A stretch of 35,393 bases of DNA from Clostridia bacterium (GTDB taxonomy: Bacteria; Bacillota; Clostridia; Christensenellales; Aristaeellaceae). The stretch covers positions 1 to 35,393 of the forward strand of contig JAFQOD010000038.1 in NCBI GenBank assembly GCA_017395685.1. Direction: 5' to 3'. How positions within the stretch are numbered: the first letter of the stretch is position 1; every line of letters starts with the position of its first letter. Below, piece by piece: positions 22,930 through 33,169 of this stretch. Below the pieces are notes generated by a model. The model made no database searches, had not been told where the DNA came from, and saw only the letters and a program-made list of their open reading frames with translations. A program made the translations under genes and the position numbers.

Positions 22930-23039
22930 CATCGCTGGGAAAACAGTTGATTTCCTGCTGCCAAGAAAAATCCAGAATCAGCTTTCTTGGAAGGGGTCTG
23001 GGGAAACCGTTCTTTGGCTACAAAGAATGGTTTCCCCAG
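22930..23039 (-). repeat. Composite hairpin repeat, copy D (after deoC)
   Basis: Minus-strand reading: a 19-bp stem opening CTGGGGAAACC, loop TAGC on that strand (22998-23039), then a conserved tail containing CCAAGAAAGCTGATTCTGGA and TTTTTCTTGG, ending TTTTCCCAGCGATG. It begins 24 nt after the deoC stop. The tail is shared with copies at 30764-30869 and 31420-31530; the stem sequence differs between copies but pairing is kept. Confidence 0.75.
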
Positions 23040-29750: not shown

Positions 29751-30758
29751 ATGAGCCATGTGATCGTTCCGGCAGGCTATAAGCCCTGCCTTTCCCTTTA
29801 TGAAACCCAGGAAGCCATTTCCCTGATCAAAAAAACCTTCCAGAGCCATCTTTCCCATGCCCTGCATCTCAAGCGGGTTTCCGCCCCTCTGTTTGTGGAT
29901 GGGGCCTCCGGCCTCAATGATGATCTGAGCGGCGTGGAGCGGCCTGTATCCTTTGATGTGCTGGAAACGGGGGATGAGGCCCAGGTGGTGCATTCCCTGG
30001 CCAAATGGAAGCGCTATGCCCTGAAAAGGTATCATTTCCCTGTGGGCGAGGGCATCTATACCGATATGAACGCCATCCGCAGGGATGAAACGCTGGATAA
30101 TCTGCATTCCGTCTATGTGGATCAGTGGGACTGGGAAAAGGTGATTGCGGAGGAAGATCGCACCCTGGATACCCTCAAGGACGCCATGCAGCGCATCGTC
30201 ACCGCCATCTGTGTGACGCTGGATCTGCTCAAATGGGAATATCCCCAGGTGCCCGTCACCCTCTGCCGGGATATCACCTTCGTCACCACCCAGGAGCTGG
30301 AGGATCTCTATCCCGATATGACGGGCAAGGAAAGGGAAAATCTTTTCGTCAAAGAGCATAAGACCGTGGGCATCCTGAAAATCGGGGGCAAGCTGAAATC
30401 CGGCAAGCCCCATGACGGCCGTGCCCCCGACTATGACGATTGGGAAATGAACGGGGATATCATGTTCTGGGATGATGTGCTGGGCTGCGCCATGGAAATT
30501 TCCTCCATGGGCGTGCGTGTATCCCCCCAATCCCTGGAAAAGCAGCTGATGCTCTCCGGCAAGGAGGAAAGAAGGAATCTGCCCTTCCATCAGGCCCTGC
30601 TCAGGGGGGAACTGCCCTTCACCATCGGCGGCGGCATCGGCCAGAGCCGGATGTGCATGCTGCTGCTGGGCAAGGCCCATATCGGCGAGGTGCAATCCTC
30701 CTACTGGGATCCCCATACCCACGAAATCTGCGAAAATGCAGGGATTGTGCTATTGTGA
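29751..30758 (+). CDS. asnA: Aspartate-ammonia ligase (asparagine synthetase A)
   Basis: 335 residues from ATG 29751, with GGGAGG 8 nt upstream; the longer frame reads through the promoter. AsnA makes asparagine from aspartate, ammonia and ATP and is related to class II aminoacyl-tRNA synthetases. Recognisable family segments are [83 protein letters not shown], and the C-terminal [20 protein letters not shown]. Length matches the E. coli enzyme (330). It is a monocistronic gene with its own promoter and is followed five nucleotides after the stop by a long hairpin. Confidence 0.96.
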   Translation: [335 protein letters not shown]

Positions 30759-30763
30759 AAAAT

Positions 30764-30869
30764 TGCGGAAGGGGCTTTCTTTTGAAAAAGAAAGCCCCTT
30801 CCGCACCATCCAAAGAAAACTGATACTGGATAAATCTTGGATTTGAGAGATTATGGCCTTTCCCAGTGA
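30764..30869 (+). repeat. Composite hairpin repeat, copy A (after asnA)
   Basis: TGCGGAAGGGGCTTTCTTT, loop TGAA and the perfect 19-nt complement form the hairpin (30764-30805). It is followed by a tail with CCAAAGAAAACTGATACTGG and TCTTGG, ending CTTTCCCAGTGA. The tail is homologous to those at 22930-22997 and 31420-31486 (read on the minus strand). The hairpin begins 5 nt after the asnA stop. Confidence 0.75.
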
Positions 30870-30930
30870 AAAGGGAAAGGGAAATTTTATTCTTATTGAT
30901 AAATGAGGAAAGGCAAGCAGAAAATAAGCA

Positions 30931-30959
30931 TTGCGACCTTCCTTTTTTTATGCTAAAAT
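30931..30959 (+). promoter_or_regulatory. Promoter of ridA
   Basis: TTGCGA (30931-30936), 17-bp spacer, TAAAAT (30954-30959). Confidence 0.65.
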
Positions 30960-30961
30960 AG

Positions 30962-30975
30962 AGAACAAACGTTCT
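30962..30975 (+). promoter_or_regulatory. Candidate LexA (SOS) box at the ridA transcription start
   Basis: AGAACAAACGTTCT fits the Gram-positive LexA box core GAAC-RNRY-GTTC exactly; only the two outer bases differ from the consensus CGAACRNRYGTTYC. It begins 2 nt after the -10 box and overlaps the start point, where a repressor would block transcription. Confidence 0.55.
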
Positions 30976-30992
30976 TAAAGGAGGAAGCGATC

Positions 30993-31361
30993 ATGTGTCC
31001 CATTGAACGATACGATGTGCATCAGGATTGGGCCCACAGTGGGATCATCCGGGCGGGGGATTTTTGTTTCATCGGCTATTGTGCAGGCAATGTGGGAAAG
31101 GATGTGGAAAGCCAGATCCGGGGCGCCATTGATCAATTGGAGAGGCGGCTGGCCATGGCAGGGCTGACGCTGGAGCATGTGGTGCAGATGGATTGCCTGT
31201 TCAGGGATGTGTGGAATATCCCCATCATGGAACGGGTGATCAAGGAGCGGTTCAAGGGCAAATATCCGGTCCGAAAATCCATCGAAACCAATTTCGCCCA
31301 TGTGGGCGGCCCGGACGGACTCCATTTCCAATTGGATGCTGTGGCCTACGCCGGGGAATGA
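30993..31361 (+). CDS. RidA-family (YjgF/YER057c) protein
   Basis: 122 residues, normal length for the family. RidA proteins hydrolyse reactive enamine/imine intermediates made by PLP enzymes; some relatives have other roles. HSGIIRAGDFCFIGYCAGN opens the strand region, VEDQ-like DVESQIRGAIDQLERRLAMA is the helix, VVQMDCLFRDVWNIPIMERV follows, and a central KYPVRKSIETNFAHVGGPDG replaces the more usual RxxxV pattern. R105-equivalent residues of classical RidA were not clearly aligned, so it may be a divergent subgroup. AAGGAGGAAG precedes the ATG. A LexA-like box overlaps its promoter. Confidence 0.82.
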   Translation: MCPIERYDVHQDWAHSGIIRAGDFCFIGYCAGNVGKDVESQIRGAIDQLERRLAMAGLTLEHVVQMDCLFRDVWNIPIMERVIKERFKGKYPVRKSIETNFAHVGGPDGLHFQLDAVAYAGE

Positions 31362-31419
31362 AAGCATATTCATTTTTTCGCATAGTTGGGCCGCAACGAG
31401 AAGTATATTTATTCCCAAG

Positions 31420-31530
31420 CATCACTGGGAAAAAGTTGATTTCTTGCGTTCAAGAAAAATCCAGTAAAAGTTTTTCTTGGGGTGGGTGCGGGAGGGGTGT
31501 TCTTTTTTCAAAAAGAACATTCCTCCCGCA
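31420..31530 (-). repeat. Composite hairpin repeat, copy B
   Basis: Hairpin 31487-31530 (TGCGGGAGG...CCTCCCGCA with an inner TGTTCTTTT / AAAAGAACA stem). On the minus strand a tail with CCAAGAAAAACTTTTACTGG and ATTTTTCTTG follows, ending TTTTTCCCAGTGATG. It is homologous to copies at 22930-23039 and 30764-30869. Confidence 0.75.
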
Positions 31531-31659
31531 TAAATCCTCTTCAAGAGCGCGAGGGCCGTAATTCGCCGCCGCCTGTGGCGGATGCAGGCGAATGCAGGCC
31601 CAATGAGGCACAGAGCGCAGCAAGCGGTAGCGCGGCTGGGCGACAATGCCGAATTGTGA
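31531..31659. other. Non-coding spacer between two long hairpins
   Basis: Palindromic fragments (CGCCGCC...GGCGG near 31562-31580) but no gene. The block lies between copy B and the hairpin at 31660-31700, and is probably part of a larger repeat insertion downstream of spmB. Confidence 0.5.
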
Positions 31660-31700
31660 GCGAAGAGGGCCTTTCTTTTTCAAAAGAAAGGCCCTCTCGC
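31660..31700 (-). repeat. Long hairpin with the same core, after spmB
   Basis: On the minus strand GCGAGAGGGCCTTTCTTT, loop TGAA and the complement (one bulge). The core TTTCTTTTGAAAAAGAAA is identical to that of copy A, but the outer arms differ. It begins 15 nt after the spmB stop and probably ends the spmAB transcript. Confidence 0.75.
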
Positions 31701-31715
31701 AATATCTTTCCCTCC

Positions 31716-32207
31716 TCACACAACCCATCCCGCGGCCAGACTGCTGACCAGCCAGGCGATGAGGGCGCAGGGGATGGCATGCCGGGATTTTTTCACCCCG
31801 GCGGCGGCGAGATACACGCCGCAGGTATAGAAAATGGTCTCGGTGGAGCCCATCATCACGCTGGCGGCCATGCCGATGGGGCTGTCGGGGCCGTATTCGA
31901 TGAGGATGGATTGCAGCACGGCCAGGGCAGCGGAGCCGGACAGCGGCCGCAGCAGCATCAGCGGCAGCGTTTCCCGCGGTAGCCCTGCCCAGGAAAACAG
32001 GGGGGCACATAGATCGCATAGCCCATCCAGCAGCCCCGATGCCTCAAAGCCCCGGATGGCCGAGAGCATGGCCACCAGGGCGGGAAGAATGGCCTTTGCA
32101 GTGGCAAGGCCCTCTTTGGCCCCCTCCAGAAAGGCATCGTACAGGGCTACTTTGCGGAAGGCCCCGATGCAGATGCAAAGCAGCAGAAAAAGGGGCAGGA
32201 TCAGCAT
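31716..32207 (-). CDS. spmB: Spore maturation protein B
   Basis: 163 residues, several membrane helices of the nucleoside-recognition (Gate) fold. Family motifs ILPALVAMLSAIRGFEASGL, RPLSGSAALAVL and MMGSTETIFYTCGVYLAAAG are intact. SpmB acts with SpmA in spore-core dehydration during maturation in Bacillus. Its start overlaps the end of spmA by 7 nt, in the usual spmA-spmB order. Length is close to the family norm of about 170-180. Confidence 0.93.
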   Translation of the reverse strand: MLILPLFLLLCICIGAFRKVALYDAFLEGAKEGLATAKAILPALVAMLSAIRGFEASGLLDGLCDLCAPLFSWAGLPRETLPLMLLRPLSGSAALAVLQSILIEYGPDSPIGMAASVMMGSTETIFYTCGVYLAAAGVKKSRHAIPCALIAWLVSSLAAGWVV

Positions 32208-32764
32208 GCTTTTTTCTCCATGATTTTGCAGCTGAGGATGCCGAAAAAGGCGGAAAGCACCGTCACCAGCAATGTGGGCAGGGTGATCGCGCCGGGATTT
32301 GCCGATCCTGCCGCCGCCCGCAGGGAAATGACGCTGGTGGGCAGGATTTCAATGGAGGCGGCATTCATCACCAGAAACAGGCACAGGGCATTGCCGGCCT
32401 GCTCTCCCCTGGCCAGGCGGCGTGCGGCCTCCATGCCAAGGGGAGTGGCGGCATTTCCCATGCCCAGAAGATTGGCGCATAGATTGCCGGCCACGTATTC
32501 CAGTGCATCCGACGGCACATCCCTTCCCATCAGTATTTTCAGCATCGGCGCCGCTTTCCCGGCCAGCCATTCCATGGCCCCCGCCCGGCGCAGAATGCCG
32601 ATCATTCCGCAGAAAAATGCAAATCCCCCCGCCATGGAGAGAGCCGTCTTCACCCCCTCCCCGGCGGCGGAAAGCATGGCCCCGGCCACCGCCTCCCCCT
32701 GCCCCCGGATCATCCCGTACAGCAGCGATGCCCCCATCAGCACCCCGAAAATGATCTGCAGCAT
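32201..32764 (-). CDS. spmA: Spore maturation protein A
   Basis: 187 residues, membrane protein of the Gate fold, partner of SpmB. GGFAFFCGMIGILRRAGAME, NLCANLLGMGNAATPLGMEA and LFLVMNAASIEILPTSVISL are the characteristic SpmA segments. GGAGG precedes the ATG (32764). It is translated with spmB through an overlap. The upstream gap to the AbrB gene is AT-rich and holds divergent control signals. In Bacillus the operon also includes dacF, which is not present here. Confidence 0.93.
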   Translation of the reverse strand: MLQIIFGVLMGASLLYGMIRGQGEAVAGAMLSAAGEGVKTALSMAGGFAFFCGMIGILRRAGAMEWLAGKAAPMLKILMGRDVPSDALEYVAGNLCANLLGMGNAATPLGMEAARRLARGEQAGNALCLFLVMNAASIEILPTSVISLRAAAGSANPGAITLPTLLVTVLSAFFGILSCKIMEKKAC

Positions 32765-32850
32765 GCCCTCTTTATCCTCCCTGAAAAAGGAAATAAATTG
32801 AATTAAATGTTAAATTTTATGAATCAGTTATTTTATTGACCAAAATGGGG

Positions 32851-32879
32851 TTGACATCCATTGTCTTTAATTGTAGAAT
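32851..32879 (+). promoter_or_regulatory. Promoter of the AbrB-type gene
   Basis: TTGACA (32851-32856), 17-bp spacer, TAGAAT (32874-32879). Confidence 0.75.
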
Positions 32880-32923
32880 AAATACGACTTAAAACCCGGA
32901 TTTTTACAATGGAGGAAAAAACC

Positions 32924-33169
32924 ATGAAGTCTACTGGTGTTGTTCGCAAACTGGATGATCTGGGCCGTATTGTAATTCCCATTGAGCTGCGCAGGACCAT
33001 GGATATCGCCCTTCGCGATACCCTGGAAATCTTCGTGGAAGATGATAAGATTATCCTCAAGAAATATCATCCCGCCTGCATTTTCTGCAATGACGCCCGG
33101 GATGTGATCCACTATAAGGATAAGCTGATCTGCAAGCGCTGCCTGGAACAGATGAAAAAGGATCTGTAA
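32924..33169 (+). CDS. AbrB-family regulator with C-terminal zinc knuckle
   Basis: 81 residues from ATG 32924; an ATG at 32909 overlaps the GGAGGA ribosome site and is not used. N-terminal swapped-hairpin AbrB/SpoVT domain with STGVVRKLDDLGRIVIPIEL and RRTMDIALRDTLEIFVEDD. A C-terminal extension follows with C52, C55, C70 and C73 (CIFC and CKRC), a likely zinc site. AbrB proteins are transition-state DNA-binding regulators; the zinc knuckle form is common in Clostridia. The gene is monocistronic, with its own promoter and terminator, and lies next to sporulation genes. Confidence 0.92.
   Translation: MKSTGVVRKLDDLGRIVIPIELRRTMDIALRDTLEIFVEDDKIILKKYHPACIFCNDARDVIHYKDKLICKRCLEQMKKDL

Follow-up and report, generated by a model that had tools for sequence, protein, structure and literature searches.

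What keeps a long hairpin paired while the letters of its arms change from one copy to the next, and does the conserved tail that follows such hairpins belong to the same structure? These questions are raised by a stretch of 35,393 nucleotides (the window) from a Clostridia bacterium of the family Aristaeellaceae (GCA_017395685.1), lying on contig 34 of its 79-contig, 2.83-Mb genome (the own genome, G000; G denotes genomes and L fetched loci). Four long hairpins, three of them with a common tail, had been noted in this window from the letters alone, and the changes in their arms had been read as compensatory. This original prediction is partly supported: its observations are right and its interpretation is incomplete. 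The tail was overlooked as a structural part, as it mirrors the 3′ arm of the hairpin and covaries with it, a relation that calls for a third strand. The conserved object is most probably a hairpin plus a third strand, forming an intrastrand DNA triplex that switches strands, and the comparisons below suggest that evolution preserves a DNA triple helix in some Clostridia, in many copies and often just past the ends of genes. The question of a role for DNA triplexes in living cells is an old one, resting largely on motif counts and chemistry.

A dispersed repeat with a covarying hairpin

All four hairpins were found at the positions given for them (Table 1). Their DNA folding energies are -23.4, -18.2, -17.5 and -18.8 kcal/mol, compared to means of -3.9 to -6.3 kcal/mol for shuffled sequences, and none of 200 shuffles was as stable for any of the four. 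The shared tail was borne out for the copies at 30764 (plus strand), 31487 and 22998 (both minus strand), and the fourth hairpin, at 31660-31700, lacks it (mirror score 1, equalled by 948 of 1000 shuffles). Three hairpins do begin 5 to 24 nt past a stop codon, namely those behind asnA and deoC and the fourth hairpin behind spmB, as measured from the listed open reading frame ends; the copy at 31487 has no adjoining stop codon. The gene names are putative, being the labels of the earlier work or names suggested by the translations. The core ascribed to the asnA and spmB copies is exact (TTTCTTTTGAAAAAGAAA) in the asnA copy and the fourth hairpin, while the 31487 copy reads TTCTTTTTGAAAAAAGAA.

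A full copy is a repeat of about 110 nt, and tandem copies in L089 are spaced 113 nt apart. On the strand where the tail follows the hairpin (the tail strand) the order is a first hairpin (H1, about 40 nt), the tail (about 18 nt, e.g. ACCCACCCAAAGAAAACTG) and a second hairpin (H2), in which CTGG and CCAG enclose some 30 variable nucleotides. The 5′ arm of H1 has a purine part at its base (GCGGGAGGG, GCGAGAGGG, GGGGAAA and others), about two variable base pairs, and then a pyrimidine part (TTTCTTTT, TTCTTTG, GCTTTTG and others). That the unit is dispersed was confirmed by 49 BLAST matches in the own genome with the copy at 31392-31534 (E<=10; some are the two strands of one hairpin), and by a profile search, iterated over the window and 33 fetched loci, which gave 60 non-overlapping places. 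The alignment (A1) retains 44 of these, leaving out eight that were unusable (no tail, contig edge, scrambled) and eight with a profile match starting past model position 11. Across the 44 own-genome copies 93.7% of cells are paired, and changes on both sides are seen in 14 of 18 H1 pairs and three of four H2 pairs. The covariation score is 0.377, compared to 0.139 for shuffles (none of 500 reached the observed value) and at most 0.121 when partners are slid, so that the claim of compensatory change, with the structure rather than the sequence conserved, passes this test. A known Rfam family was rejected, as a scan of the window returned only four tRNAs, and 22 further weak matches, mostly to microRNA models, all fell below the gathering score.

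Two side observations concern the copies themselves. The right arm of H2 appears species-specific in the copies of G000/G022, G021 and G024 (TTTTCCCAGTG, GAATGCCAGTG, CCCCGTG), a pattern resembling concerted change of the dispersed copies. Further, in L186, L227 and L228 copies located after a stop codon stop at or near the H1 loop and are followed by similar GC-rich palindromes; a pattern search for copies interrupted in the H1 loop but with their second half intact gave four rows and no clean insertion.

The tail mirrors the hairpin and changes with it

As read from the alignment, the tail is complementary to the 5′ arm read in the same direction (a parallel complement), and thereby mirrors the 3′ arm. 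Arm and tail words pair as GAGAGGG with CTCTCCC, GGGAAGG with CCCATCC, TTTCTTTTGA with AAAGAAAACT, TTCTTTTTGA with AAGAAAAACT and GCTTTTG with CGAAAAC. Since a parallel complement cannot form an ordinary antiparallel duplex with the arm, and since mirror symmetry is what a triplex needs, the relation leads to a triplex reading.

In order to examine this relation independently of the tail, hairpins were picked by stem score alone in 154 records (663,586 bases). Removal of duplicates and of hairpins with less than 40 nt of flank reduced 307 to 283 unique hairpins, and the better flank of each was scored. The parallel-complement score reaches at least 6 in 227 of the 283, while the same threshold is reached by a direct copy of the 3′ arm in 24, a copy of the 5′ arm in one and a reverse of the 5′ arm in 13. 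Among the controls it is reached by 90 of 1415 shuffled flanks, three of 37 weaker hairpins of the own genome and none of nine hairpins in 50 kb of E. coli K-12, a small control. Most loci had been fetched by searches with own copies that include the tail, and the presence of a tail is therefore partly selected; the agreement between differing arms and differing tails is not.

This agreement was tested by swapping tails among the 244 of the 283 hairpins taken as members (mirror score at least 5 and a between-flank difference of at least 2). For the lower stem the own tail scores 5.44 of 7, compared to 4.58 (sd 0.067) for swapped tails (182 unique pairs), and for the upper stem 7.16 of 8 compared to 6.35 (sd 0.043; 225 unique pairs), with none of 5000 permutations as high in either case. 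Significance was reached in all eight genome groups for the upper test and in six of the eight for the lower. Each test also holds when the other segment is kept constant: the lower within four of four upper-stem classes (CTTTTG: 39 of 5000 permutations as high), the upper within four of four lower words (GAGAGG: 37 of 5000). At stem position 4 a G goes with C in the tail in 181 of the 244 members and an A with T in 50, leaving 13 other combinations.

A proposed strand switch and the strand that probably folds

According to two papers (PMC3660596, PMC4689454), a pyrimidine third strand lies parallel to the purine strand of the duplex, a purine third strand lies antiparallel to it, and a third kind of triplex switches strand. 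One continuous third strand fits both rules here and could be placed in 193 of the 244 members. In 153 of these it leaves two stem base pairs uncovered, in 32 a single pair and in eight some other number. In the 153 with a 2-bp skip, the 5′ arm has a purine at 997 of 1004 lower positions that the third strand covers and a pyrimidine at 979 of 1176 such upper positions. Among the pairs passed over, CG occurs 157 times, GC 57, TA 34 and AT 32, next to 26 mismatches; as all four pairs occur, the purine rule is evidently relaxed where the third strand is absent. In the lower stem 1324 of 1708 triple cells are canonical (1004 C.G-C and 320 T.A-T), and the sequence has three consecutive segments on one strand that obey the triplex rules, which is one general criterion for an intrastrand triplex repeat.

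The mismatches of H1 indicate which strand folds. Among 4597 stem positions they are, on the tail strand, A.C (83), C.A (11), G.T (10), T.G (5) and other (19). Since an A.C on one strand corresponds to a G.T wobble on its complement, the wobbles lie mostly on the opposite strand (94, compared to 15 on the tail strand; 74 to 15 in distinct stems, p=1.5e-10). The ratio of opposite to tail strand is 51:9 in sense, 20:1 in antisense and 19:3 in convergent copies, and this independence of the direction of transcription favours a DNA strand over an RNA. With RNA parameters, 75 of 88 imperfect stems are more stable on the opposite strand, by a mean of 3.1 kcal/mol, and the 122 perfect stems fold almost equally well on both. 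The A.C mismatches peak at the ninth and tenth H1 stem positions, beside the switch (39 of 63 in distinct stems), which may be a selected feature of its own.

In the proposed structure the opposite strand, when single-stranded, would fold with the third strand at its 5′ side and the hairpin at its 3′ side; the third strand would cover the lower purines, usually skip two base pairs and cover the upper stem. The predicted triples are G.G-C and A.A-T in the lower stem, and T.A-T with a few C+.G-C in the upper stem; they would need little acid, while the lower stem on the tail strand would consist mostly of C+.G-C. A weaker step of the proposal is that a trans-acting machine handling folded single-stranded DNA may recognize the repeat and place or keep copies just after stop codons, which would make it a REP-like or mobile structural repeat and not an RNA signal. 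Triplex formation, mobility and function are what we infer from these patterns. As a whole, the best explanation, to which we assign a probability of roughly 0.6, is a dispersed non-coding DNA repeat kept for its one-strand structure, presumably a triplex, and being REP-like or a mobile structural repeat. The more specific proposal, of a natural alternate-strand intrastrand triplex under three-way compensatory evolution in several families of one order, which acts as the single-stranded DNA substrate of a machine placing or retaining it after stops, is tentative and stands somewhat below even odds.

Position relative to genes

With genes called by a home-made codon model, 123 of the 244 members are sense copies between co-directional genes, 46 are antisense, 45 convergent and seven divergent, and 23 lie at locus edges. 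The median distance is 13 nt downstream of the stop codon for sense copies (113 of 123 lie within 30 nt) and 30.5 nt to the start of the following gene for antisense copies. Both orientations, sense and antisense, occur together in 26 of 175 intergenic regions, and the inverse pairs in L007, L008, L015 and L017 read as arranged tail to tail. Copies lie between ordinary genes, with many sites inside apparent operons, presumably pgk|tpiA, pyrF|pyrE and valS|rsmH, going by the translations.

Distribution and turnover

A covariance model of the repeat (R1) has matches in 28 of 29 genomes of the genus, in none of seven other genera of the family, and in three of 24 genomes of other families (G047, G051 and, with one match, G036). 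Among up to 150 candidates scored per genome, 120 match in G047, 124 in G051 and 41 to 112 in four members of the genus. The copies of G047 and G051, which extend the repeat to two other families of the order, use other words on the same plan (e.g. TTTTCT with AAAAGA), with a mirror score of at least 6 in six of six and 16 of 17 fetched hairpins, respectively. An exact pattern was found in 36 stretches, all in records of metagenome-assembled genomes (labelled Clostridiales, Clostridia and, in one case, just bacterium), two of them from goat gut samples. A phage or plasmid origin is disfavoured, as one exact pattern had no match in viral contigs and one copy had no blastn match in phages or plasmids.

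Comparisons of orthologous sites are biased where loci were fetched for the presence of the element, and three gene ends, asnA, pgk and pyrF, were therefore surveyed without that bias (one of 29, two of 26 and one of 28 genomes, respectively, were not evaluable). At asnA a hairpin with tail is present in two of 28 evaluable genomes, with no clean boundary comparison, and L164 and L166 look like remnants. The 3′ end of pgk carries hairpin and tail in 17 of 24 evaluable genomes, a hairpin without tail in one, a broken copy in three and neither in three; its words differ between genomes and by our reading the tails follow the words, not always perfectly. At pyrF the element, by our reading, occurs in seven of 27 evaluable genomes, with arms that read as class 1 in G000, G021, G007 and G001 and as class 2 in G015, G024 and G026. 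The best identity between non-tandem dispersed copies is 0.89 in G000, 0.91 in G021, 0.87 in G022 and 0.81 in G024. As none of these four genomes has a nearly identical dispersed pair, recent transposition was rejected, and slow turnover with replacement at favoured gene ends fits better than a recent burst.

Alternative explanations and points against the proposed triplex

The rival that survives best, although we regard it as unlikely, is an RNA element of 3′ untranslated regions, i.e. a terminator, a processing site or an exonuclease barrier, which might contain an RNA triple helix of the MALAT1 kind. It would account for the number of sense copies and their short distance to stop codons, for the retention of hairpin and tail at pgk, and for the wobbles of H2, which show no preference for the opposite strand. 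However, TTTT follows within 12 nt of the hairpin in just four of 244 members on the tail strand (a T-run right after the hairpin is found in 28 of 244 on the opposite strand), the H1 wobbles of sense copies lie on the strand that is not the mRNA, with the same sign in antisense copies, and at least ten asnA orthologues without the element appear to end in an ordinary hairpin and T-run terminator. The scarcity of T-runs, the strand of the wobbles in sense copies and the 46 antisense members before a next gene speak against two of the roles that had been proposed, terminator and mRNA 3′ stabilizer. Of the three roles then considered, that of a palindromic unit with a preference for gene ends, putatively mobile, fares best.

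Somewhat less probable is a classical REP/BIME-like palindrome moved by a Y1 (RAYT/IS200) transposase, with the mirror relation as a by-product. The joint occurrence of sense and antisense copies, the location at gene ends and the asymmetry between strands, which is expected for single-strand transposition, agree with it, but Y1_Tnp was found in only ten of the 28 genus members that carry the element and was not found in G047 or G051, a distribution that disfavours Y1/RAYT as the mobilizer. The GTNG foot occurs in one of 244 members on the opposite strand and in none on the tail strand, and the Y1 match of the own genome, a RAYT-like gene at L034:1468-2000, looks frame-broken and contains a different REP-like palindrome (GTAGGGGCGACCC...GGTCGCCC).

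Shared ancestry combined with low-complexity purine and pyrimidine tracts, which might match in mirror fashion by chance, is an improbable cause. The tracts are simple, subfamilies have words in common, and swapped tails do score well (mean 5.64 compared to 8.12 for own tails among the 283 unselected hairpins), with 47% of swaps reaching 6 and the own tail beating all 25 swaps tried in only 50 of 283. Against this, own tails do better than swapped ones in the full set, in most of the genome groups and inside subfamilies, parallel matches are seen for asymmetric words (TTCTTTTTGA with AAGAAAAACT, GCTTTTG with CGAAAAC), and the orthologous pgk site appears to have undergone matched switches. A G-quadruplex on the G-rich opposite strand, as the shared cause of the repeated G-runs, is very improbable, since the (G3+N1-7)x4 motif found there in 73 of 244 members is missing in 171, and since A-containing words such as GAGAGGG have matching tails and the upper segment matches too.

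Several observations weigh against a strand-switching DNA triplex that is placed or retained after stops, the swap results for foreign tails just given being the first of them. The antiparallel relation also exceeds the permutations, less strongly (6.24 compared to 6.03, sd 0.042, for the upper stem; 5.04 compared to 4.75, sd 0.051, for the lower), and the two genome groups in which the lower-stem test fails are G005 (n=9) and G006 (n=12). Unique pairs are counted as independent in these tests, with no tree correction, though the copies are related, and the permutation, triple, context, wobble, skip, T-run, folding and motif counts all rest on 244 members pre-selected by mirror score. As for the geometry, no skip could be assigned in 51 of the 244 members, agreement with the purine rule is weaker in the 32 that skip 1 bp (198 of 230 lower positions purine), and the lower stem has non-canonical cells (C.A-T 80, C.C-G 54, A.A-T 46, A.G-C 36, T.G-C 29) as well as 50 cells with a C at an A.C mismatch. 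The wobbles of H2 are symmetrical between strands, with few mismatches in the 44 copies (A.C plus C.A 4, G.T plus T.G 3). Regarding mobility, no clean empty site was seen, target duplications not having been searched for, and no mobilizer was found, Y1_Tnp being the family looked for and its distribution not matching that of the repeat; the retention at pgk could mean a local function. Finally, according to PMC4666352, the E. coli repeats discussed below, as double-stranded DNA, showed no stable triplex in vivo.

Relation to known repeats and significance

The nearest known kinds are the intrastrand-triplex repeats of E. coli (TMECO) and the REP-like repeats. As described by Holder et al. 2015 (PMC4666352), TMECO, earlier called PIT, are intergenic purine-motif repeats, arranged in inverted pairs of type A and type B at no fixed distance to genes, which form a triplex in vitro and for which in vivo footprinting gave no support for a stable one. 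The present repeat is likewise dispersed and intergenic, and shares with TMECO two G-rich runs about 3 nt apart and a C-rich run, a purine motif for the (here proposed) one-strand triplex, and the occurrence of two types in inverted pairs. It differs in that each proposed triplex would have two segments, lying on the purines of first one strand and then the other and in most cases separated by a 2-bp skip, in the covariation between arm and third strand and in another strand order; its sense copies also follow stop codons closely, whereas TMECO lie more often upstream and at no set distance. Membership in TMECO/PIT was rejected on this difference in gene position and on the sequence pattern, CCCTCNCCC-N3-6-GGGNGAGGG-N3-GGGNGAGGG, which among 281 records matches once, namely in the E. 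coli control L280.

REP and BIME repeats are palindromic and extragenic, occur in inverse pairs, prefer gene ends, have GTNG at the foot of the hairpin and are associated with RAYT transposases. The present repeat has the first four of these features and differs in lacking the GTNG foot and a Y1 transposase that tracks it. Integron attC sites are also structured on one strand, follow stop codons and are diverged in sequence, and they carry the core sites RYYYAAC and GTTRRRY. The present copies lie between ordinary genes and have this pair of core sites in 0 of 244 cases, and attC membership was rejected.

Synthetic alternate-strand triplexes, as presented in PMC3660596, have a third strand that lies on the purines of one strand and then switches to the other; those are designed oligonucleotides, whereas a natural repeat family with covariation is seen here. 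Bacterial stem-loop repeat families (PMC2267715) are also intergenic and have a common stem-loop, and the abstract of that paper mentions no third strand. Among the literature matches listed, judged by titles and abstract beginnings, none describes a bacterial triplex repeat that covaries or switches strand. Selection on a structure is classically argued from covariation, and here a third strand covaries with the hairpin and indicates both the strand that folds and the point of crossover. If true, this would be evidence from evolution for a DNA triple helix, and it would provide natural sequences with which to test it and a route to a protein that reads the repeat.

Features of the window

Table 1. 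Parts of the repeat copies located in the window.
Feature	Position	Strand	Remarks
H1 hairpin, asnA copy	30764..30805	+	5 nt after asnA stop; lower word GCGGAAGGGG, upper stem TTTCTTTT; from sequence and DNA folding
Tail (proposed third strand), asnA copy	30806..30822	+	parallel complement of 5′ arm; mirror score 7.25, 4/1000 shuffles as high; from alignment
H2, asnA copy	30826..30866	+	CTGG (30826-30829) paired with CCAG (30863-30866); from sequence and H2 covariation
H1 hairpin, second full copy	31487..31530	-	two A.C mismatches on tail strand (G.T on opposite strand)
Tail (proposed third strand), 31487 copy	31469..31486	-	AAGAAAAACT fits upper stem TTCTTTTTGA; mirror score 7.75, 19/1000 shuffles as high
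H2, 31487 copy	31425..31464	-	from sequence and H2 covariation
H1 hairpin, deoC copy	22998..23039	-	class 2 arms GGGGAAACCATTCTTTG; 24 nt after deoC stop
Tail (proposed third strand), deoC copy	22979..22997	-	ACCCCTTCCAAGAAAGCTG; mirror score 8.75, 0/1000 shuffles as high
H2, deoC copy	22935..22975	-	from sequence and H2 covariation
Fourth hairpin, H1 of GCGAGAGGG type	31660..31700	-	15 nt after spmB stop; no mirror tail
Putative insert between fourth hairpin and remnant GCGCTCT	31544..31659	-	ends approximate; reading of the sequence

The tail of the asnA copy is one C shorter than in the GCGGGAAGG type, and each arm is likewise one base shorter. An insert has apparently severed the fourth hairpin from its tail; in two places, at 31544-31659 of the window and at L024:369-486, some 115 nt part an H1 hairpin from a tail remnant. 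A recurring module, CTTCTCGTTGCGGCCC...ACGCATAAGAGG, lies downstream of several copies, e.g. at 31380-31405 of the window and in L002, L006 and L010. A second dispersed repeat, made up of GAATTCCGCATTCCG units, is chained to some of the elements (window positions 2852, 21752, 22798, 23872 and 24020; L020, L027, L030 and L185).

The surroundings of the asnA copy also differ from those in relatives. In L155-L157, L160, L165, L166, L176, L178, L179 and L182 an spmA-spmB-like stretch lies closely upstream of asnA and in the same direction, whereas at 29751-33116 of the window asnA and the next gene, which we take to be RidA-like, face spmB, with copies of the element at the new junction. This opposed order, set against the codirectional order of the relatives, suggests an inversion around asnA and spmB in the lineage of the window.

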